Assembly: GCA_014871385.1 (NCBI GenBank)
Contig: CM026423.1
Span: forward strand, 4,034,408 to 4,098,407
DNA from: Ceratodon purpureus
Lineage: Eukaryota; Streptophyta; Bryopsida; Pseudoditrichales; Ditrichaceae
Length of the DNA stretch: 64,000 nucleotides
Direction of reading: 5' to 3'
Shown here: one piece after another, positions 2,108 to 42,220 of the stretch
Position numbering within the stretch: position 1 is the first letter of the stretch
Layout: every line of letters starts with the position of its first letter
Position numbers and translations under genes: made by a program
Notes under the pieces: generated by a model
Databases searched by the model: none
What the model was told of the DNA's origin: nothing
Seen by the model: only the letters and a program-made list of their open reading frames with translations

Positions 2108-2121
2108 TGTTGTACCAAACA
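2108..2121 (+). repeat. Left flanking direct repeat (target duplication) of E1
   Basis: TGTTGTACCAAACA occurs here directly outside the left end of E1 and again at 10104-10117 directly outside the right end, in the same orientation. Each copy sits 5 bp from the matching part of the TIR. A 14-bp duplication is long for a plant cut-and-paste element. Confidence 0.75.
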
Positions 2122-2126
2122 GCGAA

Positions 2127-2155
2127 GCTATCTTGTGAGCAGCGAGCAGGAGCAG
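2127..2155 (+). repeat. E1 left terminal inverted repeat
   Basis: This 29-bp segment matches the reverse complement of 10070-10098 exactly. It is followed by AGAGCAG units and a run of about 20 T at 2181-2200. Confidence 0.8.
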
Positions 2156-2478
2156 AGAGCAGTGGAGGCGTTTTTGACGATTTTTTTTTTTTTTTTTTTT
2201 GAAAAACGCTTCGTTTTTTGACAAGTTTTCGGAAATTTTGGGAATTTTTTACGAAATAGGAGAGAAATTACTAAAATTAGTAAAGGACCTATCACCGTGG
2301 ATTTTCGTGGTTTTCAGGATATTTTTGTCAAAAATTCTAAATATAGAAGTTAAAAAAAACTGATCATATATACACTGATTTTATTGAAATGAAGATTGGT
2401 TAAAAATGATTTTTTACCCTATTTTAACGAAATTTACTAAAATTTTTAATATTAATTTTTTTAAATAGAAAAAATTTG

Positions 2479-2679
2479 ATGCGTTGGAGGTGTATCTCAG
2501 ATCCGAGAGTCCCCTTGGCTGTGCCTTAAGGGGACCCTCGGATCCGAGATACACCTCCAGCGCATCGAATTTGTTCCTAAAGACATAGTTGGATTTGCAA
2601 TGCTGGAGGTGTATCTCGGATCCAAGAGTCCATTTGGCTGTGCCTGAAGGAGACCCTCGGATCTGAAATACACCTCCAG
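2479..2679. repeat. Two tandem hairpins with GGATCC-type cores
   Basis: Two stem-loops lie side by side, at 2479-2567 and 2603-2679. Each has arms of about 30 bp containing GGAGGTGTATCTC and its complement, around a loop reading TTGGCTGTGCCT. The stems contain TCGGATCCGAGA-like cores, the same core as the E1 palindrome arrays. Confidence 0.8.
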
Positions 2680-2930
2680 AGGACAGACATTCAAGTAAAC
2701 TCAATGATATGTTGTTGAGTTTTCTCACCGGAAAATTGGTATTATTTGTCATAGGGAAGAAGGACAGAGAGAGATTTCTATTTTATTGTGGAAAAAAACT
2801 CACCTAATTTGATTGTATATAATGGCATATAAAAATATCATCTTTATTTTTCGCAATTCAAATCAAGACAAATCCAATCCAGAACAAAACACTGCTGATA
2901 TAATAACCTATTGTCCACTAGGAGGCTACT

Positions 2931-3004
2931 AACTGAATAATTCTTCAAAAGGCACCCATTCGTTTATAACTGAATAATTCTTCAAAAGGCACCCATTCGT
3001 TTGA
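2931..3004. repeat. 37-bp tandem duplication at the end of the SWIM pseudogene
   Basis: A 37-bp unit beginning AACTGAATAATTC and containing AAAGGCACCCATTCG occurs twice in a row, at 2931 and 2968. It duplicates the last codons and stop of the minus-strand SWIM pseudogene. Confidence 0.85.
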
Positions 3005-4358
3005 GGATTTCCATAACCTCGTTGAAACTCTAACTCGGAGCGTGCATGAAGGAGTCTTCTTTAGGATCCATTTTGCACATGTACCGAATAACATAATAAA
3101 TATATTTGCAGTATTTCCATTGCTTGTTTTTCCCTAGAGTCTCCGAAAGCATCTTGATGAAATCTAGGCAAGTGTATTCCGGAAAGCAGCCAATGGTGAT
3201 GCGGTATAGCTTGCCCCTTCCCGTGTTAAGGGTAACAACACAACCATATCCAGGATACAGAATAGTTGTTATCCATGTAATACCGCAATGGTCCATGACA
3301 GCGGTGCTTTCCCACTTGTTACAATGCTCCACAGTTGGGGCATCAGAGTTCCTGCGAATGGAATATTCACCTCGGAGCGTAGGTGTGCATTAGGATCTCC
3401 TGGTGCCTTGAAATGGTATCTCAGAAGAGGCCAGTTCGAATTTGCTTGGAATTGGCGGCATGGTGATAGAGCGCCACACTGTTGCCATTGGAAACCCGCT
3501 TCTTCCAGGGAGAGTACCTCCTATCGAGTGACATTGGTTCCTATTTTGACTGGCCATACCATAGGAATTTCCGGCCAATCCACAACAAATGACTTAGGAC
3601 CCTCCTTCACGCATTGGTTGATATCATCAGAGCAGAACCAAAACTCTGCTACAGTCAAGCGTCTGGTGTGATAATCCTTCTTGTGTCCGGAATATATAGG
3701 CGTCGCTATACCCTGAGCTTCCTTCGAGATCTTAGCGTTACACTTCGTACGAGTCTGCGCCTGAAGCGCTTGACGTTTTCGTTCGGATCAATTTGAAAGG
3801 CGAGCAATGTGCCACTCGAATGGATCGCACTCCGACTCCTGAACAGACGTGGTGTGCTCTACACAACACGTTGGATCCGAAAGAGCCTCCTGGATCCGCC
3901 GCCCGCGCCCTTGTTGATCGAGTCCCCATCGTAGGGATGGAATAATTGACCTTATGAGAGCAGCAAAAGTCATGGGTTAAACTAGGAGGAAGATCAAGCT
4001 TCCTCTTCATAGAGCCAAAAATCTCTACTCCTTCAAGTCCCTTCTCCTTCGTTAACACGTCTCCAGCTCCGAGATACGCCTTCATTGCCTCAGCTATCAT
4101 TTCCGGGTCTAAGCTCTGCTGTACTTGACGGAGGCGGAGCTCTGCCTTGTCTAGTCCTTTGCCTCCCCTTCCTCCCTTTAGATACCTTCTATATTGAGTG
4201 ATCTCCATAAACGCTCGCATTATGTTGTCCACAATTGCAGCGTATAGACATTCGCCCGTGTTTCGGGACTGTTGAAGCCACTTGTTATGTATAGTCTCTC
4301 TTAGGTTGCACGACGACATGTCCACTCTCTTGTCTAGCAATAGGTTTTGTATAGGCAA
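2982..4358 (-). pseudogene. Decayed gene with C-terminal SWIM-type zinc finger
   Basis: On the minus strand a protein-like reading continues from 4358 to a terminal TGA at 2982-2984, with at least two frame changes and several in-frame stops. The first part (4358 to about 3970) is open and starts MPIQNLLLDKRVDM. The middle includes FVVDWPEIPMVWPVKIGTN. The last part (3332-3030) has a SWIM-like pattern: IGCFPEYTCLDF, then WKYCKYIYYVIRYMCKMD, then HAPS, a stop, and SFNEVMEIL. The usual CxH of the SWIM finger reads CxY here. From memory this C-terminal layout belongs to a multicopy SWIM protein family of seed-free plants, and SWIM fingers are also a hallmark of MuDR-type transposases. No DDE core is visible. 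The most likely role is a dead element-encoded protein of E1. Confidence 0.7.
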
Positions 4359-4587
4359 TCAAGAGAATGCGTGTGATATAATATCATGTAGAAAATCTTT
4401 GTGTCTATTACCAACATCAAGAACATATAACAACATACTTTAAATATCATCACACTTAAGATACCTTCACACTTCTAAAGATCTAAAATCATTTATGGCA
4501 TTATTCCATTGAAATCCAAAGGCCACCTTCATCTCCACTATTTTTCAAAAATATTTACAAGACTTGACCCCTTCTTAGATTCCAAGA

Positions 4588-5311
4588 ACATTTCCATTCA
4601 ATTCAAAATTCAGTACATATAACCTGCCTAAAACCTTTGTTGGATCGCCAGGTCATTTTATTCATTCATATAATTTTTTTGGATAAAAATGTGCATCTTT
4701 TTGTTAAAAATGTGCATCCTCAAAAGGGCTCTCGGATCCGAAAGTCCCTTGAGGTGGGACTCAATTTTGCTCATAGTTTAGAATCTCGATGAAAAAAATG
4801 ACATAATTTTTTTTTTCTTCAAGATATGGCTTGTTATATGTTTTTGGAAAGCTCTCATTTAAGGCTTTCCAATGGTATATTACAATATATATTTGGACAA
4901 AATCTCCATATGTAGTGCCTATTTTTAAAATACAGGTGTTGGCATATGCCTCTACCTCCCCTCCTTTATTTTAAAAATAGGCACTACACATGGAGATTTT
5001 TTCCAAATATATATTGTAATATATCATTGGAAAGCCTTAAATGAGAGCTTTCCAAAAACATATAACAAGCCATATCTTGAAGAAAAAAAAAATCAGGCCA
5101 TTTTTGTCATCCATATTCTAGACTATGAGCAAAATTGAGTCCCACCTCAAGGGACTTTCGGATCCGAGAGCCCTTTTGAGGATGCACATTTTTAAAAAAA
5201 AGATGCACATTTTTAACCAAAAAAATTATATGAATGAATAAAATGACCTGGCAATCCACCAAAGGTTTTAGGCAGGTTATATGTACTAAATTTTGAATTG
5301 AATAGAAATGG
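4588..5311. repeat. Large hairpin: 345-bp arms, 34-bp loop
   Basis: The arm 4588-4932 is repeated in inverted orientation at 4967-5311 with few mismatches, around a loop at 4933-4966. Each arm contains one TCGGATCCGA core (4733 and 5158 regions). The hairpin fills the spacer between the minus-strand SWIM pseudogene (5' end about 4358) and the plus-strand pseudogene (ATG at 5369). It is therefore where a bidirectional promoter of E1 would lie. Transcription through it would give a long double-stranded RNA. Confidence 0.9.
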
Positions 5312-5554
5312 TAAAATGACATTTTTATGTTAGGTTTGTTGATACATCATGAATCTTAATACATCCCCATGGATATCAAGAGAGCTCTAGAAGATGAAGA
5401 ACCTACAAAAGACCCTGGAGTTCACGTGACGGTATAGAAACTACGGAAGAATCCTGTTGGCAACTCACACATCATTCTAAACCAATCAATGGAGGCTCCT
5501 ATTGGAAAGTTGGATATTACATTGTGTAGGACGGTGACAATGACAAATATACGA

Positions 5555-6010
5555 ATGCTTGCCATCGCCAACACTACAAATGGCGAGGGATTCATCAATG
5601 AGATATGACTTTGCTAATTATTTAGAAAATTGTTTATATCGTACAGTGTACTTTCGGATCCGAAAGTACTTCTGTAGTACCTGCTTTTTTCCTCTATCTT
5701 TCACTTTGCAGCATAAAATGAAAATATTTAAAGAATATCTTGGTAAATTTAACTTGTTGCTATGCTTTTCCGGCGCATGAAATGGCTACAAATCCTGAAT
5801 TCTTTTTGTTTTTGGACAAATTATACATCATTACAAAGTTATTGCAATTTGCAAGTAAGGCCTGCACACCAATATGGATCGATTGCTTGCCATCGCTGAC
5901 CCCGCAAATGGCGAGGGATTCATCAATGAGGTACGTTAACTCTTCTATGTGTAGCAAACTATCTATACCGTACGATGTACTCTCGGATCCGAGAGTACTT
6001 CTGTAATACT
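5555..6010 (+). repeat. Duplicated exon plus palindrome segment
   Basis: The end of exon A with its downstream GGATCC palindrome (5555-5680) is repeated at 5884-6010, about 329 bp further on. Both copies encode LAIA followed by NGEGFINE. Only the second has a clean GT donor (GAG then GTACGT); the first reads GAG then ATATGA. Confidence 0.8.
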
Positions 6011-6395
6011 AGAAATTCATCTATTCAGTGTGGCAAAGCTCTCTACTTTAGAAGAATGTATAGACAGCCCAATGTACTTTCGGATCCGAGAGTACTTTTG
6101 TAGTACTAGAAATTCATCTATTCAGTGTGGCAAAGCTCTCTACTTTAGAAGAATGTATAGACAGCCCAATGTACTTTCGGATCCGAGAGTACTTTTGTAG
6201 TACTAGAAATTCATCTATTCAGTGTGGCAAAGCTCTCTACTTTAGAAGAATGTATAGACAGCCCAATGTACTTTCGGATCCGAGAGTACTTTTGTAGTAC
6301 TAGAAATTCATCTATTCAGTGTGGCAAAGCTCTCTACTTTAGAAGAATGTATAGACAGCCCAATGTACTTTCGGATCCGAGAGTACTTTTGTAGG
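6003..6395 (+). repeat. 97-bp minisatellite carrying a GGATCC-centred palindrome
   Basis: Four copies of a 97-bp unit lie in the putative B-C intron. The phrase AATGTACTTTCGG starts at 6071, 6168, 6265 and 6362, exactly 97 bp apart. Each unit holds ACTTTCGGATCCGAGAGT, an almost perfect dyad. The copies are nearly identical, so the amplification is recent compared with the decay of the exons. Confidence 0.95.
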
Positions 6396-6815
6396 ATGGC
6401 ATTTTTCTCTTTAGTTCTTAAAAAGCTGCACTAAATCCTGGTTTCTACAAGATATTTACGTATATTTAAGGAAGTTTCTAATTAAACTAATATTTTAGGA
6501 AAAAATTGCTTCTAATATTGATTTTTTATTGTTTTGGGACAGATTATTGCCGATTACAACTGCAACATGTCAAATCCGGAGATGCTTCCTGAAAAAATTC
6601 AGTACATAGCGACGGCTAAAGTTCCAGCCCAATACAAGCAACGGTGGTTAAAATGGTGGAATATGAGCAAGGATCAACAATAGGCCAACAACTTCCCAGA
6701 GACCCCTTGCTCAACTACCGCCCTTCCACTATGAGTGGAAATTGCCTCCTTCTACGCAGGCGTGAGTTTCACTTGCATTATTCCATTTCTTATCAAAATA
6801 AATCCATCTCCACAG

Positions 6816-7540
6816 GTACTTTCGGATCCGAGAGTCCATATTGGGGAGGCTGATTTTTCTTCAAGCATTTTGAGATTCGTCATTTTTTGTCATGATTAGT
6901 GGTCTCTAGAGAATAATTCATGGTGTGTCCAGGGTACTTTCGGATCCGAGAGTCCATATGGGGGAGGCTGATTTTCCTCAAGCATTTTGAGATTTGTCAT
7001 TTCCGGTCATGATTAGTGGTCTGTAGAGAATAATTCATGTTGTATCCAGGGTACTTTCGGATCCGAGAGTCTATATGGGGGAGGCTGATTTTCCTCAAGC
7101 ACTTTGAGATTTGTCATTTCCGGTCATGATTAGTGGTCTGTAGAGAATAATTCATGTTGTGTCCAGGGTACTTTCGGATCCGAGAGTCCATATGGGGGAG
7201 GCTGATTTTCCTCAAGCATTTTGAGATTTGTCATTTCCGGTCATGATTAGTGGTCTGTAGAGAATAATTCATGTTGTATCCAGGGTACTTTCGGATCCGA
7301 GAGTCCATATGGGGGAGGCTGATTTTCCTCAAGCATTTTGAGATTTGTCATTTCCGGTCATGATTAGTGGTCTGTAGAGAATAATTCATGTTGTGTCCAG
7401 GGTACTTTCGGATCCGAGAGTGCATAAAGGGGGGATTGATTTTTCCTCAAGTATTTTGAGTTTTCTGGTTCTCGCTAATAATTTGAGGCCTCTAAAGAAA
7501 AATTCATGGTGTGTCGAGGGTACTTTCGGATCCGAGAGTA
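6816..7540 (+). repeat. 117-bp minisatellite with the same palindrome
   Basis: GTACTTTCGGATCCGAGAGT occurs at 6816, 6934, 7051, 7168, 7285, 7402 and 7520, so the spacing is 118, 117, 117, 117, 117 and 118 bp. The spacer text (GGGGGAGGCTGATTTTCCTC and following) is unrelated to that of the 97-bp array. The two arrays thus share only the palindrome. This array fills the putative C-D intron. Confidence 0.95.
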
Positions 7541-10069
7541 CAAATTGGGGGGACTGATTTCTGCAAATCTTGTTGGTTTTGTTGCAACTAGAGGAAGAAG
7601 CAGGAAAGCTGTACTCCAATATCATCGAAGAAGACGGTCTTCAGATTCCTCAACCGGGCTTCCAGGGCGTCATAATTAACATTCAGAAATTTGTTCTTGT
7701 CGGAAGCCAGAGAATCTGCAATTACGGCTACCCGGAAATACTTGGGAAGGGAGGAAAATTCAACAAGCAGAAGGAGTTTCTAGAGTAGGAGAAGACCATA
7801 GAAGCTGTGTGCAGGGTTGTGGTGAGATACTTTTACCAGGAATTGTTGAAGAAAGGGGCAATTATAGAAGACCAATTTCCAGCTCGTTTCAGATAATGGT
7901 TGGACACGGGAAGCGAGGACTGTATTCTAACTCCAAACCAACGACGCGATTTCACAAGGCTGCACTTTTGTCGGTGCCCTTGGTACATTGAGCTCTCACC
8001 TGCAGATCCTTGCCTAGATCATGAACTGGAGATATTCGTCGTCTGCAAGAGGGAGACTGAAGACATGAAGTCCAAAGGCCTGGACCTTGAGAATGCGACT
8101 CTATCGGTGCATATGTCTGAACAACAACGCAAAAAGATAACAAAGAAGCTTGAACGTGACAAGCAACTAGCAAAAGCGCGTGCTGAAAAGGCGGAAAGGG
8201 AGAACGAGGAATGAAAGAGACGGAAGGAAGAGAAGCAAATTCGCATCAGCCAAGCCAAGAAGGTGGAGAAAATGGGCTTGAAGAAAGCCGCCGAGGTTGA
8301 AGGTATCTCACCCTCTGATAGTAGCATGCCTTCTAATAGTATTCACGAGACATTTAGCTTGCCTTCGCAATCTGTCTACACTATAAAGACTCAGGATCCG
8401 GAACATGAGTGTGCGGATGTTCTTATACTGAATGAGAGCACCACGAGTATCTTGGACGAGTTCAATGATATCAAGATGCATGATGACGACACGAAGCCGC
8501 CACTGTATTCGAAGATTCTGAAGTTTGTCCAAGAACACCAAGGACGTAAGTCTCGTGCATACAAGGGGCAAACGTCATCAGGTTGCGTGGACTTCATTAT
8601 TAGTGTTAGTTTCGGGTTGTGTTGTGTTAGTTTCGGGTTGTGTTGTGTTGGTCTCGGGTTTTGGTTTTGGGTTTTGATCTCATGTTTTGGTCTCATGTTT
8701 TGATCTGGAGCCGAAGAGATTTTGTGGTATCGGATTTTGTTCCCTTGTTACTATTTCATTGTTTGATTTTATTTCTCAAGCATTATTTTGATGTGAATGT
8801 TGTCTTTGTGCAGTGCCTATTATTTTCCGCGACCCTTGCAAGTACTATGTTTTCTAAATTCTTGACAGATATTTTTTTTATAATGCCTTCATTCCTTGCG
8901 CGGGTTTCAGTACTGACACTCTGTCAATAATTCTTACTTGAAAATATACATGTCTTTGCTCTAATCTGATTAATTGTTTTCACTTGTAGACTCCAAGAGT
9001 TTTCTTTTCCACACACCACCATGGTACTCACGCAGGCTCAGCGACGGAAGCTTTCTGAGGTTGGAGTTTCTCCAGACTTGGACCTTCTTGCTCGAGTTGC
9101 AACAAAGAATACTCCCCCAAAGACTCCTTCAACTACACCACAGAAGGAAGTACATGCCTCAGAGGTGGCTCCAGTCCCTCAGCCTTTCGACTATCTTTGT
9201 GATGCAGGAGTAGACGTTGGAGGCTGTGAAGATGTTCTCACCATCGAAGTAATTGAAGTGGGGAACACCAACTATTATGTTGAAGTTCTCCACTCAGACC
9301 ATGGAAACGCAAAACCCAAAGATCCCTGGGGGTTGGATGTCCATGGCACCCTAGGTGATGACTACTCTTTAGATAATGACTACGACTCCGATGGTTTGGA
9401 TGAGTTTTTTGGCGGCCAGATCGACTACACGAACTACCCTCCTCCATTATCGGCCCACACCCCCTCAGCATACGATGAAGCCTCCTCAATCGATGAAGGA
9501 GCCTCGAACTCCACCAATGGTTAGGGTGATAGTGAGGATATCTTTATTTATATAAGAGATAGTGATATCTTTGATAGTGAGGGTTTTCATATGCATTGAG
9601 ATCATTTCTAGGCCTGTATTTCAGATTTTGTGTGTTCTTTAGATTTTTTACTTAGATATACCTTGATATCGTAGCGCATACTACATGAGCATGTATGTTG
9701 GACTGCATTTTATATAGTATTAATCTTAGACCGTATCTATATATGAATAGAGTAGATGGTCATTTATTCACATCATCTATTGTGACCCATTTTTGTAAAT
9801 TACTGGTGTAATTAAATTCAGTAGCCGTTGCTACAATTTTTTGAATTCAAATTTGTTTTTTCTTTGAATTTGGTTACATTTGATTTGAGGTCTTTCTGTC
9901 GAAAGAATATTCCAAGAATTTTCATAGATTTTATCCTAAATATTCTCTCAAGATTCTCTAAAGATTCCGCGGTAATACACACTGTATTATTTTGCGAAGA
10001 AAAAAAAATCGGAAAAAAATATCAAAAAAATCAAAAAAATCAAAAAAAAAATTCAGTGCTCCCTGCTTG

Positions 10070-10098
10070 CTGCTCCTGCTCGCTGCTCACAAGATAGC
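10070..10098 (-). repeat. E1 right terminal inverted repeat
   Basis: It is the exact reverse complement of 2127-2155, preceded by A-rich sequence and TGCTCCCTGCTTGCTGCTCC. The outer direct repeat follows at 10104-10117. Confidence 0.8.
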
Positions 10099-10117
10099 AT
10101 TCCTGTTGTACCAAACA

Positions 10118-10728: not shown

Positions 10729-11468
10729 GGGTGTAAGCACGGTAAAGTGGACCAATAAGTGCAATGTGTGATCACTAGAAAGTGAATATGAAGTGTGCTG
10801 TTTTTCAAAGCTCAAATCTGATTATGAGCATTTTGGTGTAGATTTTGATCATTTTAGTCACTTTCTAAGGTGTCATAAGGTATCTTACACGCATCTTTGT
10901 AAAAAAAACATCTTCAATTGAAACTTGATTTGACCACTAGTTCTAAATCATGAAAATAAACTTTTCCAAAGTTTTGATTTCTTCATTTGGGGCCCTCTAT
11001 TGTCTTTAGAGGATGTTTTTTCCAATTTGAAAAACAATGTTCGGTGAAGAAAAACTCACTAAAAGTACCGCGGAAGTGACCCTCCTGAAAAGCATCCTTG
11101 CGACACTTTTGGAACCCTAAACCAATTAATGAGTATACGAATTGACCATTTTAGAATACCTCTTAAACATACAGAGGGCCCCCCTTCATCAAAAGTGATT
11201 TTGAGATAGTTTTTGATTCTTTTCTAGCCACTTTTTCAAATAGTCACATTCACTTTGCTCGGATTTAAAGCCTTCATACAATAACTTAAAAGTGTCTAAT
11301 TTGCATGAAACTTTTCCAAGTTGTACAAAAACAAGTTGAGAATCTATATTAGCAAAAAAAAATGAATTCAATAACATTTTTCCATCACTTTTGCACAATT
11401 TTAGCAAAAGGGCTGAAACTGACAAATAGTTAAGCACTTTTTTGGTACACTTTACGATGCTTACACCC
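10729..11468 (+). repeat. R730 TIR repeat, copy B
   Basis: The ends are GGGTGTAAGCACGGTAAAGTG on the left and the reverse complement of GGGTGTAAGCATCGTAAAGTG on the right. The first 330 bp or so align well with copy C; the middle has diverged. AATA flanks both ends and may be a short target duplication. No coding capacity is seen. Confidence 0.85.
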
Positions 11469-16700: not shown

Positions 16701-18758
16701 TTGAACATTAGAAAACTTCAGTTCATGCAGAATTTCATGCAACATGATCACCTGACGACTCTCCAACCATTCGAGAACTCGTTCCAAAAAGCCAGCCGAG
16801 TATGAACTAGCATCAAGTTCATCCAGCACAACAGCTGCCGTCTGAGTTTTGAAAAATAGGAAGAAGACATGGAAGTAAGGTACAAAGGCCAAGTAACGAA
16901 TTCATCCAACACAACTCTCTTACCTGGTTATATTTCAAACATTAGAATGTGAGTCGAGTTCAAGCTAGCCTAATCCCAAACAGCAGAAACAGAGAAACCA
17001 GCGCTCTAATAAAATGCAAGGACCTTGATAATTCCAAAGACTTCCATGTAAACTCGCAGAACCATCATTAAATTCTTGATTACCAGGTCAGGCGAAGCGT
17101 AGAACTCATAGTCCTCCTCGTCGTCAGAATGGTCATCACTATAAGTAATTAGAGCTAAAAAGTCCTTCTCTTCTAGCACCACTCCCTTCTTGGCTACAAG
17201 TGCCAGAAAATCTTTCACCTGGGTGTTCAGACAAGATAATTGTGCAGATGAGCTTCAATACGAGAAGTTGAAAGTCCCAGTCAAGGAAAAAGGCCATAGG
17301 TAACAAACTTGCCTCTGAGAAATCGTCGACTTCGAAGTTGAAATGAATGCACCTATAAACTATGTCCTTCTCCTCAAGCCACTTTAGGTGAAACAGAGAT
17401 TCCTTTCTGCAGTAAAAGAAAACAACAAAATGGTATTAATATTGACGATGTTCTGGTTCGTACCCAGCAGGTAAAAGTCAACAATAAGTTCTGAGCAGTT
17501 CATACCCACAAGTCGGTGTAAGGGTAGCTGCTATTGCAGCTCCGATGTCTTTGCAAGCCAACAAATTCCAGCCCAAATCAAGGAATCGTTCCCATGTCCT
17601 TTCTTGCAACTTGCTGAGTGAGTCCCTTATTTGTATGAGCTCTAGAGTACCACCATAATGATTCACTCCCCAGCATGTGATTGTGTGGAGGTGCTTGATG
17701 ATATCTGAGAAGGCCTCGTGATTTTCCTGGACAACTTCCAAGCTAGAACAAGGATTCACAAGCTCTTCAGCTGGGATCATGTCGTCCAGAGTCTGAAACA
17801 ATTTAGAACATGCCTCACTGCAAAGATCCTTGAACTCAATTTTGGAATTAGTCTCTATCTGTGGGATGACTTTTCTCCAGCTATTGCTACCAGTGTCAGT
17901 ATTCAGCAACTGACATAACGGACGTAGAAGAACTGCTGTTGTTGGAAGGCTAAATGTTTCGGAAAAGTTGAAATGGTAACAGAGCATCCTCAACATCAAC
18001 TTGTATCCAGATGCCACCTTTGAAAAGATTGATGTGAGGCTGAACAATACTGGATTTGCCCATGCTGGGAGCACACAACATAAGCAACCGCCTTCACGAC
18101 CATGATCCACTCCTTTCTGAGAGCAGAAATAGTGGACCTGACCATGGATACGCCCGCCACATACCTTCACGAATACTCCTGGAACTTGCAAGAGTGATTC
18201 TAATCTCCATGGACATACGAGAACCCCTCTCTTCCTGCCCAATCTAACGTAAAATTTACTCTTTGAGTTCAAGACATCGCATAGAGCTACCAAGAGCTGT
18301 GAAATGTTTGGTCCCATTTTGATAGCTTGAGTTGCGAGGTCACCAGTTCCGGGGGAAAACATCGCTACCACCAGTTCTACAAACACAAACAAGACCTCAA
18401 AGAGATACGCTCGTAACTCCTCTTCGTGGCTCAATACTCCAGTCATGGTTCTTTTGATGGCAGCGGGAAGAAAGCAGCACAGTGCGTTCAAACTGCTGGC
18501 CTCTCCTCTCCTTGCCACCTTCGTGGCATCTCGGAGAACATCGCTGAAAGTCCTCAGCACCGTCACAGAGGGCGTGGTTGCAGAATTGCATTCTGCAGCA
18601 TAGTCCTCAACGAATCTCAAAGCCATAGTAGAAATGTGGCCCGGAAAATCACCAACACCGCTCCCCTGGTTAACCTTTGGTTGCGGATTCACTTTGGTTG
18701 TCGATTTGGCAATGGCCATATTGACCTCCAGTCCAACATCCACCCCACCCACCTTCAC
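13737..18758 (-). CDS. RING-finger protein, about 914 residues, 11 exons
   Basis: Exons on the minus strand join in frame: 18758-17506, 17406-17313, 17218-17024, 16841-16752, 16536-16451, 16358-16262, 15953-15813, 15616-15444, 14799-14616, 14420-14235 and 13982-13737. All introns have AG acceptors. Donors are GT except the second, which is GC (GAG then GCAAGT), so that intron would be GC-AG. The last exon carries a C3HC4 RING: CVVC, then ACLEPCGHASACMEC, then CPIC, close to the C-terminus as in E3 ubiquitin ligases. An acidic patch (SDDHSDDEEDYEF) lies near the middle. The long N-terminal part looks helical and I do not recognise it. A second in-frame ATG at 18719 could be the true start. The RING implies ubiquitin ligase activity; the substrate is unknown. 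Confidence 0.8.
16026..16076. repeat. Short tandem duplication in an intron
   Basis: The phrase CTTCCATACACAATTCCCAG occurs twice in direct succession inside the intron between the sixth and seventh exons of the RING gene. Confidence 0.8.
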
Positions 18759-19857
18759 TTGGCGCCACTTGCTTCAAAACCCACTATCTCCAAATCTCCA
18801 CCCATCTCTAGGCACCTCCCTTACCCCTACCCAGCTGACTCTGATCTTCTACACCTCGCAAATTGGCAGCCTCCTCAGCCCAAGCGAATGGCGATCCAAG
18901 CAAGACGCCCACCATGAAAAAGGTCGCTCTTCTAGAATGAAGTCATAGACAAAGTATGCATTGAGAAGCTGTAAGGCCGAAAGCACAAACTTTCAAGCTG
19001 CAATTGATCGAGAGTACATGAGGCATCGAAGCACAACAACTTCCATGAAATGCAGGTACATACCAGGGTGTGCCATGCACAAGTATATTGATCGAACTAC
19101 ACTGCAGTTGTTGTGGAGTAGAACTGGGAAACTTCAAACCCGCCATCACTCTGGCATTGCACTGATGCAGGCCTACAGCTTCGAAACTCCCACCTTCAAA
19201 CTCAGGGCGCGAGTAAGCGTCGGTTTACTGAAGTACCAAGTTGATAGACAAGAAAAAATGGCTACTACAACAATCGAGATGAAATGAATGAAGAGGCGCC
19301 ATGAGACACCAAACCAGGCTTACAAAACTCAGAGCTCTCCAGTTTCCAAGTACAAGTCGCCGTTTGGTAAACTTAATGTAAGTTCTTTTATAGTATTGAT
19401 CGAACAACATCTACTTGTCATACTGTTTATGAATTCGGCTACTTGTCATAATGTTTGATACTGGGACATCGCCTCGCAAATGATCACGACTTGCACTCCA
19501 CGACCCTCAAATTAATACTCTCACCCCACTCACCTGTCTTCTCATTCACTACGAATCATCTCAGAGCCTATGGTGTCTCCTTTGATGTCACTCCTAGTGT
19601 GGAGACATGGGCATGCAGGTAAGTGTAGGAAAAACAGGATGGTTACACCGCAATGTTCAAGACAATCACACAGTGGACGACCAAGTGGAGAGATGTGAGA
19701 GAGTGTGCTCGACTCGGGCAGGGACCTGTCTCTCCTCATGCTCCAGTATAATTCCCCAATTTAGTTAGTTCCTTAAAAGACAATAGTAAGTTTGCTCACT
19801 AGATAGTTTCCCAATTTAGAACGTCCGTTCTGATGCCCCTCCTTCCTTTCTGCCCCG
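18759..19857. other. Upstream region of the RING gene, no other gene seen
   Basis: This spacer should hold the promoter and 5' leader of the RING gene. Short frames on both strands lack splice context or recognisable motifs. Confidence 0.4.
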
Positions 19858-24304: not shown

Positions 24305-24543
24305 AAGTATATATAAGTCAAGTCGCAGTGAGAGTGGGGAAAGCGAATTCCGAACGGGAAAAGTAAAAAGCAAAACGTAAAAGTATATATAAGGGAGGGG
24401 AAAAGGCTCGAATCCATATATGCAAGAAAGAAATCCGAGAGGGAGAGCGCGAGAGCGAGAGAGCGAGAGAGCGAGAGCGAGAGGGAGAAGGAGAGAGTGA
24501 GTTGAGCGAGAGGGAGAGCGAGAGAGTGAGTTGAGAGGGAGCT
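24305..24543 (+). promoter_or_regulatory. Putative UGE core promoter and GAGA-rich leader
   Basis: TATA-like GTATATATAAG occurs at about 24307 and 24383. From 24435 to 24540 the plus strand is almost pure GAGAGCGAGAG-type purine repeat up to the UGE start codon. Such GA/CT leaders are common in plant 5' UTRs. The assignment is positional. Confidence 0.55.
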
Positions 24544-28803
<4,260 letters not shown>

Positions 28804-29779
28804 ACCGACTGACTGCATACTAGTAGACAGTCGATGGTATTCATAATCTGGGGTCAACATGGGTATTGCTCCACTTAGAAGTAAATTTATCCTGAACGCT
28901 TCACAAATATGACAAGATACAACTGGGCACTACATGCTGCAATCATGTGAGAAAAGCTGCATCAAAAAATGGGCCCGAGGATCACGGAGTCAGTTCGGTT
29001 TTTCCACTTTGGAATTCAAAGATATTTGATAAAGCAGTTTGAATGCATGCTTTGGGTATTGTTATGATGACTATAAGCTCTGCTCATTGTCGTTTTGAAA
29101 CGAGAGGATGCAATTGAAGAATGATCTGTTGGACACTAGTGACGAATTCAACCAAGTTCGGTGAAAGATGATCCAGCTCCATCCGCTGTTCATGAGTGAT
29201 TCTGAAAGAAGGCTGAATTTCACATTGTTCATGATAAACCTGGGTCCATTTGACTAGAGAAAGAGGTTGAAGTTTTTTCTTACATGGCCAGAAACATGCA
29301 CGACAGATACATGCACACTATTTATTGATGTGTGTTGTTGAGATGAGTCTTTTCGGTGTTGAATTTTGAACAGTACATGAAGATGAAAGAGTGGTGGTCC
29401 TGCAAAAACGGAACATCTGCAAGCAGAAGACGTTTAATGAAATGTGATGTTCGTAGGAATTCATTAATTGCGTGTCCATTTTACGGTGGAGAACTCATAA
29501 CTGTTTGCTGTGATGATATATCAATTAGTTCATAAGAATTGAGGTAACGGCATTCCGTAACGCTTTCCCTAAACAGGAGTTGAAGATGCAGAAGGATAAC
29601 AGCAGTAGAGAATAAACTTAATCTTAGTCACTCATATACAAAGCTGCTCACAGAATTCAAAAGAAATAAGTGCTACAGGAAATAAGTATTAAGATCCAAG
29701 ATTGTTAAAATCCTCAAGAATCATGCATCGGTTCCAAATTTTCAGCTTCCAAGTTTGAAGAAAAAATCTTCCTGAGGCA
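28804..29779. other. Spacer between UGE and the bestrophin-like gene
   Basis: It probably holds the UGE 3' UTR and the promoter of the next gene. No other coding frame is supported. Confidence 0.5.
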
Positions 29780-30994
29780 ATGGCCGTGGCGATGATGGCT
29801 GCGATATGCTCTCTCAACAGTCTCCGAATACCCGCCGAGAAACGTCTGACTCTGTGGACTCGATTTCAAGGAAGGGCACGGTTTAGCACGAAGAAGGCGA
29901 GGAGAAGATTGCATCTGTGCCAAATATCTGGAACATTGCCCCAGCATGCCAGAGATCTGGAGAACCCATGTCCATTAAATTACAGAGGATATTTCAACCC
30001 TAATGTTGCCGATAAAGAGAAGGAGGACGCGATGAAGTACAGAAGAACAGTCTACGATCATGAGGACTGGAGACGGCACCGCAGCAGCAGACGTCACGCC
30101 AGACATCTGCTGTCGATACCCACCTCGCGGGTGGCTTATGCGATTTGGCCTCCGGTCCTTTCACTGACCACCATAGCGGCGATCACCACAGGCTACAACG
30201 AGGCCGTCATGGTGCACGCGTTGCCACAGTGGATGCCGTTGCTGCACCTGTCCACTCTCCCGCTGTCTTTCACCGCATCCTGTCTCTCCCTCTTGCTCGT
30301 GTTCCGCACCAACTCATCTTACACAAGGTTTGACGAAGCTCGCAAAGCGTGGGCGACCACCCTGTGCAGAACACGAGACATGGTCAGGCAGGCATTGACG
30401 TGGATGCAGCACCCGGCGGATGCGAAGAAACTTCAGAGCTTCCTAAACTACGCTGCGTCGTTTCCTTACACCTTGAAGAGCATTCTCGTGGAGGACGCGG
30501 ACATCAAGTCGGAGTTATCACTCTTGCTGGACGCCGAGGAGACGGAAGCTGTGCTCAAAGCCACCCATCCTTGCAACTATGTGCTACAAATCATCTCCGA
30601 AATTGTACACAACTCCCAATTGCGTGAGATGGAGAAATCCATGATGGACATGAACATCACTCAGCTCCATGAAAGCTTGGGGAACTGCGAAAGGATATTC
30701 GGGACGCCGCTTCCGTTGTCCTACACAAGGCTCACGTCCAGGTTTCTCATCATCTGGCATATCATCCTCCCGATCGCGCTCTGGGACCCATGCAACTGGA
30801 TTGCCGTCCCCGCCACTTTCATCAGCGCGTCCGCGCTGTTTTGCATTGACGAGGTCGGAGTTCTCATCGAGGAGCCGTTCCCCTTGCTCGCCCTGCCAGA
30901 GATCTGTGACGACATTCGCAAGAACATCGCAGGCTTGGCGGCTGCTCACGACCTTTACCATGTCCAGACATCTGCCCCTTCAGAAAAACCGTAG
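29780..30994 (+). CDS. VCCN1: Bestrophin-like (VCCN-type) chloride channel, plastid targeted
   Basis: This is a single-exon gene of 404 residues. The bestrophin/UPF0187 family signature FRTNSSYTRFDEARKAW starts near residue 174, followed by LPLSYTRLTSRFLIIWH and PIALWDP in the last third. In plants this family (VCCN1/VCCN2) forms voltage-dependent chloride channels of the thylakoid membrane that tune the proton motive force under changing light. The first 70-90 residues are rich in Arg, Ser and Leu and poor in acidic residues, as expected for a chloroplast transit peptide. Hydrophobic stretches near 120-170 and 315-360 fit membrane helices. The length is close to that of known plant members. 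Assignment to VCCN1 rather than a paralogue is by family resemblance only. Confidence 0.88.
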   Translation: MAVAMMAAICSLNSLRIPAEKRLTLWTRFQGRARFSTKKARRRLHLCQISGTLPQHARDLENPCPLNYRGYFNPNVADKEKEDAMKYRRTVYDHEDWRRHRSSRRHARHLLSIPTSRVAYAIWPPVLSLTTIAAITTGYNEAVMVHALPQWMPLLHLSTLPLSFTASCLSLLLVFRTNSSYTRFDEARKAWATTLCRTRDMVRQALTWMQHPADAKKLQSFLNYAASFPYTLKSILVEDADIKSELSLLLDAEETEAVLKATHPCNYVLQIISEIVHNSQLREMEKSMMDMNITQLHESLGNCERIFGTPLPLSYTRLTSRFLIIWHIILPIALWDPCNWIAVPATFISASALFCIDEVGVLIEEPFPLLALPEICDDIRKNIAGLAAAHDLYHVQTSAPSEKP

Positions 30995-32664: not shown

Positions 32665-34191
32665 ATGGAGCCCATCGGTGTGCTGCCTCGTTGGCTCGTT
32701 GGCTTGAGACTCATTGATGTTACGATTATGGTTTTAAGGATCCTTCTTATCAATTACTGGGGTCTGACAGAAGACGGGTTTGGAATATTTAACATGATCC
32801 GATTCGGCATCCTTTACCCATTGTGTGGGATAGCTCCCCTTGTATTCACACTTGCGTTCAGAGCAGAACAGAATTTTCTTACAAATATGAGTGGATCATA
32901 TAGGATTTCATCCATGCTCATCTTTAGCATTTTAGTTGAAATGTTTGACCGGGATCTCCCAAATTATCATTCAAAGGATGGTTGTGATGAAGGCTGCTAC
33001 TCTGTTATACAAGCCTGCTTTTGGGTGATGGTGCTCCTCAATTGTCTTCAGATCATCATTTCTAGCCTGATACCAGTTGACAATCCCTCGAGGAGTGGAG
33101 ACTTAGAACTGATGGTGGGCAATAGTCGCTTGCGCGTTCATTCGGGGCTCTTTGGTGGTCTATCTAGTGTGCTGATTAGGTGTGGCCGTGTCATGGGGGG
33201 AGTTGACGGGCTGGTGGCGTGGCGCCTTGGCTTGGGATCTATGGGTGCTATGATATTAACTTTTGTTCTTGGCGGTTTTGGGAGTGTGATGACAGCCAAT
33301 GTATTACGGACATGTTGGTGGCTCGGCTTCCTGGAAACTATATTGGTCTGCGCAAGTCGAGAGAAGATGCTCAACATATGCATGGGTGTTCGTTATATAA
33401 TTTTCTCCGGGTTGAAGATTGGCCTTGTCAGTTTTTCTATCATGAACAACCATTTCCACTCTCTAACTGAGAGCAGCGGTTGTAAAGTGGGGACTACCTG
33501 CTACTCCCGTCTTCAAGAGTGCTTCTGGGTGATGCTTGTTATTTACTTTCTCGAGGTGCTCCTTGCAGTTCTGTTGTTACTTGTCCATCACCCAAGACAA
33601 GGGATGTCTTGGATTAATATTCTGGCAAACTCTTATGGAGTATTTCTAAGTATGTCATCAGCTTTGTCAATAACCCAAGTAGCGATTGTAAGCCTTCTCT
33701 TGGGCGGAAGCTATGGCCCCCTCATGACAGCGAGAGGCTTCTGGCTTTGTGCTTTCACTGGAATTGTAGAGATGGCCGCCCTTATGGGCATCACGGATTG
33801 GGTGGGTAAGGTATTAAAAACTCGAATAGACACTGGGATGTCATTCTCGAACACTATTTCATCATTTTTTATAGTCCCAGTACTGAGGATGTGTGGACTA
33901 TTTATCATTATGGCCCTCTTAGACATAGCAAAACTAAATGGTGAGAACTTTTTCATCGCGGACATGAGCAATTGCGATGAGACTTGTGAGGCCCGAGGCA
34001 AAGACCTCTTTGCCATTTGTGGACTGGCTGTAAAGGCACAGGTCTATCTCAGTTTATTATTCGTCGGTTTCATCGTTAATCACCTAGAAGGAATAATGCA
34101 CAGGGAGAACCGGCAGCGAGTGGGAGCAACAATGCTTGGGGCGAACAGGCAGCCAGTGGGAACAAGGACGAGACTTGTATGCGAGCGGTGA
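32665..34191 (+). CDS. Multipass membrane protein of three related modules, interrupted by E2
   Basis: This is an intronless frame of 508 codons as it stands. Three modules of about 160 residues repeat the layout of hydrophobic helices followed by a Cys-rich loop: C107/C111/C117 with CFWVM, then GCKVGTTCYSRLQECFWVM near 272-290, and NCDETCEARGK near 436. About four membrane segments per module are likely. I do not recognise the family. The frame runs into element E2: the last codons, from ...RQPVGT onward (RTRLVCER), are element sequence. The natural continuation TMHGEDRQLV... and its stop lie at 49949-50009 beyond E2. That part repeats the RQxVGxTMxG pattern just before the break, so the insertion replaced only the last 16 or so residues. 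The truncated protein may still be made. Confidence 0.7.
   Translation: MEPIGVLPRWLVGLRLIDVTIMVLRILLINYWGLTEDGFGIFNMIRFGILYPLCGIAPLVFTLAFRAEQNFLTNMSGSYRISSMLIFSILVEMFDRDLPNYHSKDGCDEGCYSVIQACFWVMVLLNCLQIIISSLIPVDNPSRSGDLELMVGNSRLRVHSGLFGGLSSVLIRCGRVMGGVDGLVAWRLGLGSMGAMILTFVLGGFGSVMTANVLRTCWWLGFLETILVCASREKMLNICMGVRYIIFSGLKIGLVSFSIMNNHFHSLTESSGCKVGTTCYSRLQECFWVMLVIYFLEVLLAVLLLLVHHPRQGMSWINILANSYGVFLSMSSALSITQVAIVSLLLGGSYGPLMTARGFWLCAFTGIVEMAALMGITDWVGKVLKTRIDTGMSFSNTISSFFIVPVLRMCGLFIIMALLDIAKLNGENFFIADMSNCDETCEARGKDLFAICGLAVKAQVYLSLLFVGFIVNHLEGIMHRENRQRVGATMLGANRQPVGTRTRLVCER
34156..34165 (+). repeat. Left target duplication of E2
   Basis: GTGGGAACAA occurs here and again at 49939-49948, on either side of E2, in the same orientation and within the same codons of the interrupted gene. 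Ten base pairs is within the usual range for Mutator-like elements. Confidence 0.85.
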
Positions 34192-34260
34192 GCGGCGAGC
34201 GGAGAGCGGAGAGCAGAGAGCGGAGAGCAGAGATTTGGAGTGCAGAGAGCAGAGAATGGT
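34179..34260 (+). repeat. E2 left TIR with GAGAGCG-type short tandem units
   Basis: It is a purine strand made of GAGCGGTGAGCGGCGAGCGG followed by GAGAGCGGAGAGCAGAGAGC. It is matched in reverse at about 49862-49924. The inner units vary between the two ends, as expected for slippage-prone repeats. Confidence 0.85.
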
Positions 34261-34388
34261 ATTCTAAATCTAAAAATAGACTTATTTTTACTAAAATTAG
34301 AAACTAAAATTAGAAGATGCGAATATTTCAAGAATATTCTTGGAATATTTCTTTTTTTAGTAAATAATATTAGCCCTATAACCGTGGA

Positions 34389-37300
34389 CTTATTTGATAG
34401 TATAGTTGAAAAAAGCTATATTTTCAATCCTATTTCCGTGCATAAATTATGCTATAAAATAAATTGACGAAATATAAAATAAAACTATGCCTCATTTCCA
34501 TCCTTATGTGTAAGATGAAAGTCGTTTATGAATATAATGTCCGGGTTTCAAGGGCGCCAAGCACCTTCATCATGGATATTTAAGCTTTAACAATAGGCAG
34601 TCTCTTCCTATTTATTCATTGTTTTTTTGAAACAAGTCTCAGTAGGAGCCGGCTACGGTTATGGAAGATGTCAGGGTTATTGCTGTCTAACTTGGTGACG
34701 TTGTTGGCCGATTTCAACCATATGTGGAGATTGAGGGGGAAGAAGAGGGCTGAGGCAAATGGGTGCAGCCAAGGCATAAGGGCTTAGTGTAATGTATGAC
34801 GTGGATGTAGGATTAGACATGAGAGGAGAGCCTTGAGCTGTAAAAGAGTCAAGTGGGATCGTAGTGCTTATTTCCAAGTTTTGTTTTTTGGACATTAAAA
34901 AACATTTTAAGACATGATTTCACCACTTGGATTTTCAATCCAACATTTATGTACATGCCGTTTTTACTATCATATAATAATTTTTTTTTTAACTCCATAG
35001 CCTTTGTGTATGAATTTCAGCATACCTCCGTGTGAAAAATCAAGCATTTCTTTAGGTATTAGAGGTCGTATGAGGATAAATGCATAGAAATTTCCTAATC
35101 CACATAGGAACAATAATTTGAAGAATCTCAAGTCAAATTTACTTTTGAAATTGATCTTTTTGGCTCAAGAAACTCTACAATCCCATTTTGCAAGGGAAAA
35201 TTTAATTTTTTCAACTTTGAACATTATAATCTTGCAAATGATAAGGATTTTGAATCTAAGATTTGGAATAAATGTACATGTAAAGTAAGATACTAGATCC
35301 TACAATTATTTTCCCCCAAAATACATCAAAACTTGAAAACTTATATCTTGTATTAAAAGGGGCCAGTTCAGAGGGTTTTTGGCAGTTTTGAGGCCTCTTG
35401 ACTTTAGGGGTCAATACAATAGCCATAGTAGAATAACAATTTACTAAAGCAGCTCCAAGAGCTACAGTTGTAAGGATTGATCGCTCACCCAACTCCTAAA
35501 ATCATAAAATACAATTATTACCTATTGCAACGAAAAAGAGTAAATAGAATGAAAGCGTAATGAAAATACAAACTAGAATCATTAATTGTTTGTTTAGGTC
35601 TAGAGATAAGTGTAATCAACAAATCTAAAGCTACTACAAACCCAGATACCACAAAATCCGCCAATCTCAATTAGACTCATGAAATATAAACTCCTAACTA
35701 CAAAGATTAGACTAAATGCTTCTGACACCATGTCAAGCTGTGTTGCTACGTTCTTAGTATGTATACACATAAATTAAAGAACGTATCATATTACAGTTGT
35801 TCAAAACAAGTAAAATTGAGACATCAAGTAAATAAGCTGGACTAATAACTGTATATAATATCATACCTTTCATATCATATATTAACGTAAAAGATTATGC
35901 CTTTTTCTCCAACTATGTACCGACTGAGGCAAAGAAATCTTTAAGTACTCTATGATTTCAGCATTTAATTTGTATCATGCGGAAACCAACCAAGAAATCA
36001 TTTGAACATCACAACAATCTAAGTTGAAATGGATCAGTTCACCAAAAACACATAACATACAGACAAAACCTCCTGCCCAGTAACCACACCGCCCAAAGGG
36101 AATGTGAAGCTCATCTAACCTAATATTTTATTTTATTTTTAAACCCCACCAATACGTAGTACACACACACTCACACTCACATAGCACTACTCTTCACCCT
36201 CAGTTCCCACACCCTGTTGCTAACTTCTCACCAGGCTTCCAACTTCCCCTCTACGTGCAACAATCCTAAGCCAATGCTCAAAAACACCACTATCAAATCA
36301 CACCAGCTACAAACGAAGTGCAGCATCCTTGCCATAAACTCAACCAACCTCCGAAATAAACCCCGTTTGTCTAGTAACCTAAAACTTATCAATAAAAAAA
36401 CCACAAACCTCTCCCCTCACTGACCTGAAAGCTGACATTAAACTCAAACATAGAGGACAAAAACCCTACTCAAAGATCAAGCAACCAAAACCCATCACCC
36501 AATCCAACTCTGAAACACAAAAACTTCATCAATTACCCAGACGATCCATGGATGATGCCACAATTACAGTGCACGTGTACCACGTTTGGCTTTCAGAATT
36601 GCTTGAAAATAATTTCCATGTTTAGGATATTGAACACCAATCTGCAACAGGAGCTTTTGCCCAAATGCGGCAGCCTGCATCTGCCACACTGCCTCCATGT
36701 CCTGTATACCGGTATACTAAGGCCTCATTCACAATATCAGCACCTCCTCTCACCAATGTCTGATGAGCAAATATATCCTGCACGTCCTCCAGGAGAATTG
36801 TTGCAATACAAAACAAACAGTGCAAGATCAACAGTATGGTCCCTAGTTCATACACACTAGGTTAAAGACTCTCCATGAAAGGACTGTCATGCAAAGGCTT
36901 CGCTACGAGGTCTAATCCAAGTGCAAAAAGAAATGTCAAGTGCTCGTTCTGCCGAAGGAGTGTTCGTCACCTGCTTGTCAAACCACACTGACTACATCAG
37001 AAGCGCAGGTTTCACCATCCATCATATACCAACCTAGAGCCTGGACAAGCAAAAGCAAATAACCGAGCTCTATTAGAATCCTTATGATACTGCCAACACT
37101 TCATAAAACAAAAAAGTTCAAAAGGTTTGCTGAATAAAAATACAGTACACAGGACTAAGAAGAGAATAAGAAAGAGCATGATTAAGCTAGCAACTAAGAA
37201 AGCACATAATTAGAACTCTTTCTAAGTCACCCTGAGGACTGTAAAACAGGTTTTAGCCGAATATAATATTTTATTCCCAACTAAATCAAAAACAATGCAG

Positions 37301-37502
37301 TTGAGCCAAGTGAGGTAAATATCAACTGATGTTCACTGGAAAAATGTTGGGTGACATGAAATTAAACAAAACTCCCATCTAACTTTGAGACAAGTCAATT
37401 GCTATGTACAGTGGTCACCAAGTCCACCGTCCCGTTAATCTTCGGTTTATAGTTCAGGTGTATAGTTAGAAAAGAGAGGCACAGAAGCTGAAATAGAATG
37501 CA
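34389..37502. other. E2 left interior, possible captured exon at 35256-35492
   Basis: Most of it is AT-rich without genes. On the minus strand at about 35496-35256 a frame reading ELGERSILTTVALGAALVNC follows a TTTTAG acceptor and could be another captured exon, but I cannot name it. At 36855-36700 (minus) DVQDIFAHQTLVRGGADIVN looks protein-like, also unnamed. Confidence 0.35.
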
Positions 37503-38936
37503 CTAGAAATCTCTACATCGTACGCCAAGTACATTTATGAAATTCATTACATTCAGAAGATTATCTAGTATGATGGCAGGTGTGTCACTGTGGCTAGCCT
37601 CACGCAAGTCCTTTTGAGTGAAGATCCCTGTGCAGACGCCAATTGCCAAGGCTCCACCAAATTCTGCTGCCCGGATGTCGTTTGGCTGTATTTCCATCAC
37701 ATGTTTACATATTCATCAAAACAAGTTTCAAATATCTGCTTTTTAAAACAAGAGGTGACAGCATCCGGCAGTGCAAACACATCACTACACCGTATTAAGC
37801 AATATATTCCTTTTCCAAATGATCTGATGAGGCGTATTCAGGCCTGACTTTAGAATGTGCTCAACGAAGAATACAGATCCTTGAAAACTGAACACACAAT
37901 ATTTTTTGCTCCACGCTACATCTCCTTTCTAGACATGCTACAATTGAAGCCACCTACTATCTCTGCCTATATTCATCGTCAAACCAGAGGAAAAGCACCA
38001 GCAATCAAAAAAAGCCAAGACAAATGCAAGAACTTGCAGCACACAAGATTTAACTTACCGTATCTCCAACATGAGCACGCAAGCGAAAGCCTCCCGGAAA
38101 CATTTGATCAGCACGAGCTGCAGCAATTCTCACCAATTCTCCTCTGTCACTGTGATCACTTCCAAATCTGCAAAATTGAACATGGCTCAACAGAAGAGAA
38201 AAATAACTTGATCCCAGACTCTATAAAAGTGAACATACTTCACAAACATGAATCTGCAACCTGTGCACCTTCAGATGAGAACATGCCCCGTTCCCTTCGA
38301 GCAGACCCATTTAGAGTATGATTTTTGGTATCATTGTTTGTGGCAAAAGTCTATGAGAACGTTACGAATGGTAAAAGCGTACAGCCAAGAGTCAGGTGAT
38401 TACCCTCCAAAATTGGGAATTGAAAAGAACTGACGAATACCAAGACCTTCCATTTTGAGCCAGGCAATATCCTCCAGGTTGCCTGTCACCTGAAATCCAA
38501 ACGCCCAAGCATATTGAATACTTTTAAATCTACACAAACCATCACCATGAGTAACTTGCTCCCCAAAGAATGGAAACTCTAGTCGATGCACCAAAATATA
38601 TGGCACCAAAAGATGCCTTTCGTGAAGTCACACAAAGCCCCATATAGTTTTGACCTCAACACCAGAGTTCTGCATGTAATTTATATCCTTAAATTACCGC
38701 ATCCTGCATACATGGGTACATAATCCCAGCTATGCTGCAAGAACAGCACATCAATAAAATTGAACGAAGTAAAGTAAAGATTCAATAATCACCTCCTCCT
38801 GTCTAGAAAGAACCTCGAGCAGCTCTCGCACTCCAGGAAGGACCTCTAGGCCCTCACCGACCTCACTTGCATGCTGCATCGCATACTCAACCATCTTGGC
38901 CTTCAGCTCTCCCAGCTTTGGGGCGGCTGTCTGCCA
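37503..38936 (-). pseudogene. Captured HAD-family hydrolase fragment (four exons)
   Basis: Minus-strand exons with good splice sites are 38936-38793 (VLPGVRELLEVLSRQEE), 38489-38404 (VTGNLEDIAWLKMEGLGIR), 38167-38059 (FGSDHSDRGELVRIAAARAD to VGDT) and 37685-37503 (PNDIRAAEFGGALAIGVCTG to the stop). The last three join in frame. Together they give the middle and C-terminal core of a phosphoglycolate-phosphatase-like HAD enzyme, with motif II-like TGN and the motif IV region GDTPND. The first exons with the DxD nucleophile are not found upstream, and a few residues are missing between the first two exons. No stop interrupts these exons. Introns are retained, so capture was at the DNA level. It cannot make an active enzyme as it stands. 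Confidence 0.75.
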
Positions 38937-40210: not shown

Positions 40211-40328
40211 CAGGAAGGGCTGCTTGCTGCGGCACACTCGCTTTATGCATTTCAACCAGCTGTTGACATATCGTAGAATACACTGAAATCTGCCGTCGCA
40301 ATGTCTCCAGCTGCTCATCCGTCATCAC
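40211..40328 (-). pseudogene. WOX13: Captured WOX13-type exon (N-terminal conserved block)
   Basis: The minus-strand exon 40328-40211 is bounded by GGTCAG (acceptor) and GTGAGT (donor). It encodes VMTDEQLETLRRQISVYSTI followed by CQQLVEMHKASVPQQAALP. This is the block just before the homeodomain in WOX13-clade homeobox proteins (MTDEQ, LRKQI, LVEMHK). No homeodomain is found downstream on this strand before the HAD exons, so only a fragment was taken. A GC-rich segment at about 40594-40780 upstream may contain part of the preceding exon, but its frame does not join cleanly and has a stop. The exon itself is open. Confidence 0.75.
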
Positions 40329-40739
40329 CTGACCAACACTCCCCACAAATGCCCTCACAATCAGCAAAAACCCGAAATAAACATAATCTTTCCAACATCC
40401 CCGTCACCGCCAGATCACAAAATCTATCCCTCCGCTGCCTCGCAACTGGTCAAAAAAGTCATTGCAAGTAAATGAGCCATGAACGAAAGCAATGCACAGC
40501 AATTCTCCCATAAATGCCACCGCACATCTCCGATCAATCCCAGTTTCCACTGCCATGACATGAATTCAAAACCTCAAGGAAGGTAGGGTTCACCGCATGC
40601 TGATCTGCCCAGAGCCCCGCGTCTACAGCGGCTGCGGCAACGACCTCTCCAGCGAAGGCCCCAGCACGAGGCCAGACCCAGGCTGCGCTTGAATCCCAGA
40701 CCCCATGGACACCGGGATCGAATGCATCCAATACCGCAC

Positions 40740-42115: not shown

Positions 42116-42220
42116 GGAACATTTGATTTTTTGAAATGATTTCAAATAGTTGTACTATTCCTTTTACTTCCTCTAAAATGATACAGAAATGTGTTAGCAA
42201 ACTTGTTTTTGTATATTTTT

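Follow-up and report, generated by a model that had tools for sequence, protein, structure and literature searches.

Among published systems, the closest found for the locus studied here comes from Arabidopsis, where related VANDAL families carry different motifs (Hosaka 2017; Sasaki 2023; PMC5735166, PMC10398659). Such a motif is short, largely confined to its own family, and gathered in introns, in upstream regions and in non-coding parts near the ends; a VANC protein binds it and removes DNA methylation. VANC21 binds YAGTATTAY in introns, intergenic regions and terminal non-coding regions, and according to the sections of these papers drawn on here VANC motifs build up through tandem repeats that differ between related elements (PMC5735166; PMC10398659). 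The YAGTATTAY motif is a short one whose arrayed copies share a single orientation, and the string 'palindrom' is absent from the text of PMC5735166. MULE elements are a second point of reference. They have long TIRs and target duplications of 8-10 bp, and in the portion of the source considered here Muta1 of Aedes aegypti serves as an example with complex TIRs, Muta1-type MULEs having short subterminal tandem repeats as well as derivatives with host gene fragments (PMC5225508).

The window analysed here is a stretch of DNA of 64,000 bases. It contains an element, E1, that is probably a DNA transposon carrying one palindrome of 20-22 letters repeatedly in its non-coding parts. We tentatively read the arrays of this palindrome, the dyad, as clusters of binding sites for a regulatory or anti-silencing protein encoded by the element family, VANDAL/VANC-like in its working; this reading, which is drawn by analogy, is given a probability of roughly 0.4.

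E1, its genes and the sister element E2

E1 is delimited by GAGC-rich inverted ends of 45 nt that are 89% complementary and give it an extent of about 2118-10107; the left end (2118-2162, plus strand) was taken from the inverted repeat and the right end (10063-10107, minus strand) from inverted-repeat analysis and flanks. Both borders carry a 14-bp flanking repeat, TGTTGTACCAAACA (2108-2121 and 10104-10117). As its left copy overlaps the left end, the true border of E1 lies between 2118 and 2122, and the presence of the repeat at both borders gives a target duplication of 6 to 14 bp, depending on the choice of end. Another repeat, with copies at 1-691, 10736-11075 and 51772-52462, the second and third inverted relative to the first (aligned arms 85-93% and 88-91%), has its first two copies standing on either side of E1.

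A sister element, E2, was located at 34166-49938. Its GAGC-rich ends measure 55 nt with 91% complementarity and are flanked by a 10-bp repeat, GTGGGAACAA (34156-34165 and 49939-49948). The motif TATNACCGYGGA occurs once, pointing inward, inside all four ends (E1: 2290-2301, plus, and 9966-9977, minus; E2: 34377, plus, and 49820, minus); only these four are found in 64 kb as compared with 0.02 expected, a figure that is not a blind test because the motif was defined on these same ends after alignment. When the inner sequences of the four ends were compared, two of the six pairs were alike beyond shuffles (4/200 and 1/200 as good), and for the other four 30 to 158 of 200 shuffles were as good. 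Judged by the GAGC-rich inverted ends and TATNACCGYGGA, E1 and E2 are likely members of one family. The best tblastn match of an E1 ORF inside E2, among the matches listed (E 0.010, 9825-10094 against 34275-34355), lies in the end regions, outside any gene, and ten E2 ORFs compared with Pfam gave none above the cut-off. A GAGC-rich stretch at 24436-24535 was considered as a third family member and rejected, as it is without TATNACCGYGGA. At 40185-40403 (minus strand), a weak QLQ match (E 9e-4, below the cut-off) marks a probable host gene piece in E2 near its palindromes.

E1 is most likely a decayed two-gene element, the genes of which diverge from a large hairpin at 4589-5310 in the gene model that we drew up. 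The minus-strand gene (3033-4358) consists of ORF pieces in different frames, 3741-4358 (206 aa) and 3033-3389 (119 aa). The Cys-bearing end of the latter was judged by eye and may be SWIM zinc finger-like; this Cys pattern gave no Pfam match above the cut-off, and the best PDB match (E 0.45) was unconvincing. Beyond the 3' side of this gene lies a perfect 37-bp tandem duplication (2930-3002).

The predicted plus-strand gene starts with exon 1 at 5874-5930, followed by the donor GTACGT at 5931, read by eye as was the in-frame join of exons 1 and 2 (5930/6543). Exon 2 (6543-6761; ORF 6522-6680) contains an in-frame TAG at 6681-6683. Exon 3 (about 7592-8583, its end being guessed) would encode a lysine/glutamate-rich product interrupted by three stops, and its ORFs 7558-7785, 7789-7893, 7897-8211 and 8215-8700 share one frame. 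A further plus-strand ORF from an ATG, 9021-9521 (167 aa), had no Pfam match. Both genes are broken in the present copy. Eight E1 ORF pieces, short and broken, were compared with Pfam; no family scored above the cut-off, two weak matches fell below it, and no DNA-binding domain was found in these pieces. Among six ORFs of the window compared with Pfam, only 29759-30991 matched (bestrophin, E 1.2e-76); 17478-18773, whose somewhat FRIGIDA-like look raised the suspicion of a plant host, had no Pfam match at E 0.01.

Number and placement of the dyad

The core dyad, TCGGATCCGA, has 16 exact matches in the window as compared with 0.04 expected, a number reached in none of 100 shuffles, and all 16 are located within E1. 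With one mismatch, four extra copies appear in E1 (2497, 2616, 2657 and 3871) and one outside (61044); with two mismatches there are none in E1 and nine outside. The sequence-only reading had regarded this GGATCC-centred dyad as E1's own, which holds in the window for every exact copy but not for the single-mismatch copy at 61044. It had also given the dyad a length of 18-20 bp. The same core does recur throughout, and a wider consensus, GTACTYTCGGATCCGARAGTMC, was read by us from column counts; among the 16 exact copies, however, only 5654 and 5983 have perfect symmetry over 20-22 bp, and where these two differ, a change in one half is matched in the other.

The dyad recurs in four contexts. 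The first comprises two similar hairpins at 2.5 kb, with four dyads, one exact and three with one mismatch: hairpin 1 (2468-2576) contains 2497 (one mismatch) and 2538 (exact), and hairpin 2 (2603-2679) contains 2616 and 2657 (one mismatch each). The second is the large hairpin, situated between the two divergent genes of the inferred model, whose arms (4589-4936 and 4963-5310) are 348 nt long and 95% complementary and carry the dyads 4732 and 5158. In the third, an exon-like segment of the plus strand (5552-5681, dyad 5654) aligns with its duplicate at about 5880-6009 (dyad 5983), and this pair is grouped with a 97-bp array of 4.3 units (5975-6394, plus strand) that has five dyads and lies in predicted intron 1 (5931-6542). 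The fourth is a 117-bp array of 6.4 units (6815-7560, plus strand) with seven dyads in predicted intron 2 (about 6762-7591). Thus, the earlier observation of one dyad common to both minisatellites, to both arms of the large hairpin, to both 2.5-kb hairpins and to the neighbourhood of the duplicated exon was borne out. The intron arrays hold 12 of the 16 exact dyads, and none of the 16 falls in an exon, although the single-mismatch copy 3871 does; this placing depends on our own gene model. The rightmost exact dyad, 7535, is about 2.6 kb away from the right end of E1 at 10107, and the interval between them is free of copies even with two mismatches allowed.

The spacers of the two arrays had been described as unrelated. 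In agreement with this, the 97-bp and 117-bp spacers gave no alignment (score 16; 112/300 shuffles as high), whereas ungapped counts at fixed offset point the other way: the flanks of 6177 and 7174 agreed at 48/120, compared with a mean of 31.1 (sd 5.0) for random E1 pairs, 0.15% of which were as high. Several dyad pairs had ungapped flank counts above random (44-50 of 120). By this count the flanks are not wholly independent, and the dyad sites may go back to a shared ancestral sequence somewhat longer than the dyad. When the gapped 40-bp flanks of 5158, 6177 and 7174 were compared with one another, nothing significant was obtained, and the flanks of 5158 and 5654 likewise showed no clear match. 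The downstream gapped 40-bp flanks of 5654 and 6177 matched (31/1000 random segments and 7/1000 shuffles as good), and the sequence that these two dyads share downstream reflects their link through the exon duplication; the gapped flank score of 5654 and 7174 was weak (119/1000 random segments and 43/1000 shuffles as good). The suggestion that the dyad, not the spacer, is the unit being multiplied has to be narrowed: it applies between contexts, but within each array the whole unit including the spacer has been multiplied. A 17-bp segment of the 97-bp spacer (6008-6024) is matched exactly at 1675-1691, outside E1.

E2 contains another palindrome, CCACTGCCGNNAACGGCAGTGG, with 19 copies at up to five mismatches between 40745 and 44412. 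At this threshold 19 of the 20 matches in the window are in E2 and five shuffles gave none; its half-sites number 20 in E2, none in E1 and three elsewhere in the window. With up to one mismatch allowed, E2 in turn has no E1 dyad. The E2 palindromes occupy the middle of the element, with over 5 kb between them and each of its ends. The idea of a family in which each element bears a private palindrome accordingly keeps its basis, in that E1 and E2 look like kin with different palindromes, and extends to these two members.

Other sequence collections were searched as well, namely IMG/VR and a collection of prokaryote contigs, neither of which is expected to contain a genome such as that of E1's host. 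A 17-base dyad pattern matched one identical stretch in two IMG/VR contigs, L001 and L002, in the latter within a long ORF, and was set aside as a chance match. Paired dyads with a gap of 75-105 bases, a range that takes in the 97-bp spacing and leaves out the 117-bp spacing, were found in one IMG/VR contig, L003, with other extended flanks; there (4893-5009) two TCGGATCCGA, separated by 107 bp, sit in a context of about 25 bp that is itself repeated, and their flanks are unlike those of E1. No paired 14-base dyads occurred in the prokaryote collection within a range covering both spacings. The GAGC end pattern matched two IMG/VR contigs, L004 (GC 0.71) and L005 (a long GAGCAG-type repeat), which were rejected as they are without TATNACCGYGGA. 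Five IMG/VR stretches matched the pattern of the 206-aa ORF, and none of them encodes a relative.

Upkeep of the dyad and explanations for its spread

If the dyad arrays are clusters of protein-binding sites, their palindromic form suggests a dimeric binder. Each palindrome would be the dimer-binding site of a sequence-specific DNA-binding protein encoded by the element family, and the bound protein would act as a regulator or anti-silencing factor. Such sites would have been gathered in the non-coding parts: between the divergent genes, in two introns and in the hairpins near the left end. Tandem duplication may have multiplied them there. In favour of this reading are the location of all exact dyads in E1 and of none in a predicted exon, their recurrence in four contexts, the unchanged core of the five pairs described below, the matched change between the two perfectly symmetric copies and the different palindrome of E2. 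The decay in the 2.5-kb hairpins, the excess in ungapped flank counts, the broken state of both genes, the negative Pfam result for a DNA-binding domain in the E1 ORF pieces and the short, one-orientation motif of VANC21 count against it. We infer the binding by a protein, the encoding of this protein by the element and the effect of binding, and likewise the gene model.

Upkeep of the dyad was studied in five duplicated pairs. Two of them were the arms of the large hairpin and the copies of the exon-like segment; the other three were array units that we picked out of more, namely 1/2 and 6/5 in the 117-bp array and 1/2 in the 97-bp array. In these pairs, 0/50 sites were changed in the 10-bp core as compared with 84/766 elsewhere (one-sided Fisher p 0.004). 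Changed CpGs numbered 0/10 in the core and 7/12 elsewhere (p 0.005), and over the 22-bp dyad 4/110 sites were changed as compared with 80/706 (p 0.006). The 2.5-kb hairpins showed the opposite trend, with 3/20 core sites and 3/4 CpGs changed, and three of their four dyads are one CpG-type transition off the core. When all seven pairs were taken together, 2.5-kb hairpins included, the core had 3/70 changes against 90/823 (p 0.051) and the CpGs 3/14 against 8/14 (p 0.06). We take these figures as a partial, moderately strong sign of upkeep of the dyad core, one based on few pairs and on a division into five pairs and hairpin pairs that was set after the data had been seen.

The main rival, and a serious one, is growth driven by hairpins without any function. 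In that case hairpin-prone palindromes would stall replication and recombine, producing duplications, foldbacks and arrays in which the dyad is the breakpoint. Both arrays begin at a dyad and end 14 and 25 bp past a dyad core, the hairpin arms contain dyads and the left hairpins at 2.5 kb are decaying; moreover, hairpin repair could have produced the paired change by which 5654 and 5983 differ, and the fixed-offset excess in the flanks would suit copies of a somewhat longer unit. The recurrence of one sequence in four contexts with mostly non-aligning flanks is, however, not readily explained by breakpoints, nor is the similar amplification of a different palindrome in the sister element E2. 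We regard growth of this kind as rather unlikely.

It is also unlikely, a little more so in our judgement, that the GAGC-end family, which would not belong to the VANDALs, is one in which each lineage evolves its own palindromic address together with a matching DNA-binding protein, the two changing in concert. The same low probability is given to the accompanying proposal that this protein protects or switches on its own copies only, anti-silencing having been invented independently.

Quite improbable is that the dyad is the site of a host transcription factor, gathered by E1 to drive its own genes. Two exact dyads do lie in the hairpin between the divergent genes, where a promoter region is expected, but elsewhere in the window there is a single one-mismatch copy, at 61044, most exact copies (the 12 mentioned above) sit in intron arrays and E2 uses another palindrome.

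In maize En/Spm, repeated subterminal motifs are bound by TnpA. That the dyads are likewise transposase-binding sites for end pairing is very improbable: the repeated motif is private to E1 and the first 600 bp from the left end hold four dyads, one of them exact, but the arrangement is not bilateral, the motif common to the four ends is TATNACCGYGGA and not the dyad, and binding at the ends fits poorly since the right 2.6 kb of E1 is free of dyads and the E2 palindromes are central.

Comparison with CACTA, MULE and VANDAL elements

With En/Spm, a CACTA element, E1 shares a repeated private motif within a DNA transposon. Unlike those of En/Spm, its dyads are not bilateral and subterminal, being absent from the right part of about 2.6 kb. 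The ends of CACTA-class elements read CACTA, whereas the ends of E1 and E2, examined by eye, do not.

As in MULEs, the ends of E1 and E2 are inverted. The 10-bp flanking repeat of E2 would fit the target duplications of 8-10 bp described for MULEs, and the 14-bp one of E1 would give a duplication of 6 to 14 bp owing to the ambiguous border. One E2 end carries 7-bp GAGCGGA repeats, recalling the subterminal repeats of Muta1; unlike in Muta1, as far as it is described in the source used here, where the repeats are within the TIR, the E1 arrays are internal. The E1 ORF pieces gave no Pfam match above the cut-off for a MULE transposase domain.

The reading of the dyad arrays as binding-site clusters for a family-encoded protein takes its analogy from VANDAL/VANC, and the differences are clear. 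The motif of VANC21 is short, whereas that of E1 is a palindrome of 20-22 bp, and the degenerated TIRs of VANDALs (PMC10398659) differ from the GAGC-rich 45-nt ends of E1, which are 89% complementary. In the E1 ORF pieces no known Pfam domain was found above the cut-off, and the likeness to VANDAL/VANC is one of motif placement and apparent dynamics. E1 is therefore likened to VANDAL elements and not assigned to them: its TIRs are not degenerated, its motif is palindromic and no relative of VANC was seen. Should intact relatives confirm the proposed reading, a further private-motif-array system would exist in DNA transposons, outside the VANDALs, and it would become testable whether such addresses arise often, reach different introns and promoters and coevolve with the protein. 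Altogether, and as far as the VANDAL/VANC sources drawn on here extend, E1 resembles that system in having a motif that is private in this window, is clustered in the non-coding parts of the inferred gene model and has grown by tandem repeats, and the related elements E1 and E2, two members so far, bear different motifs, as related VANDAL families do.
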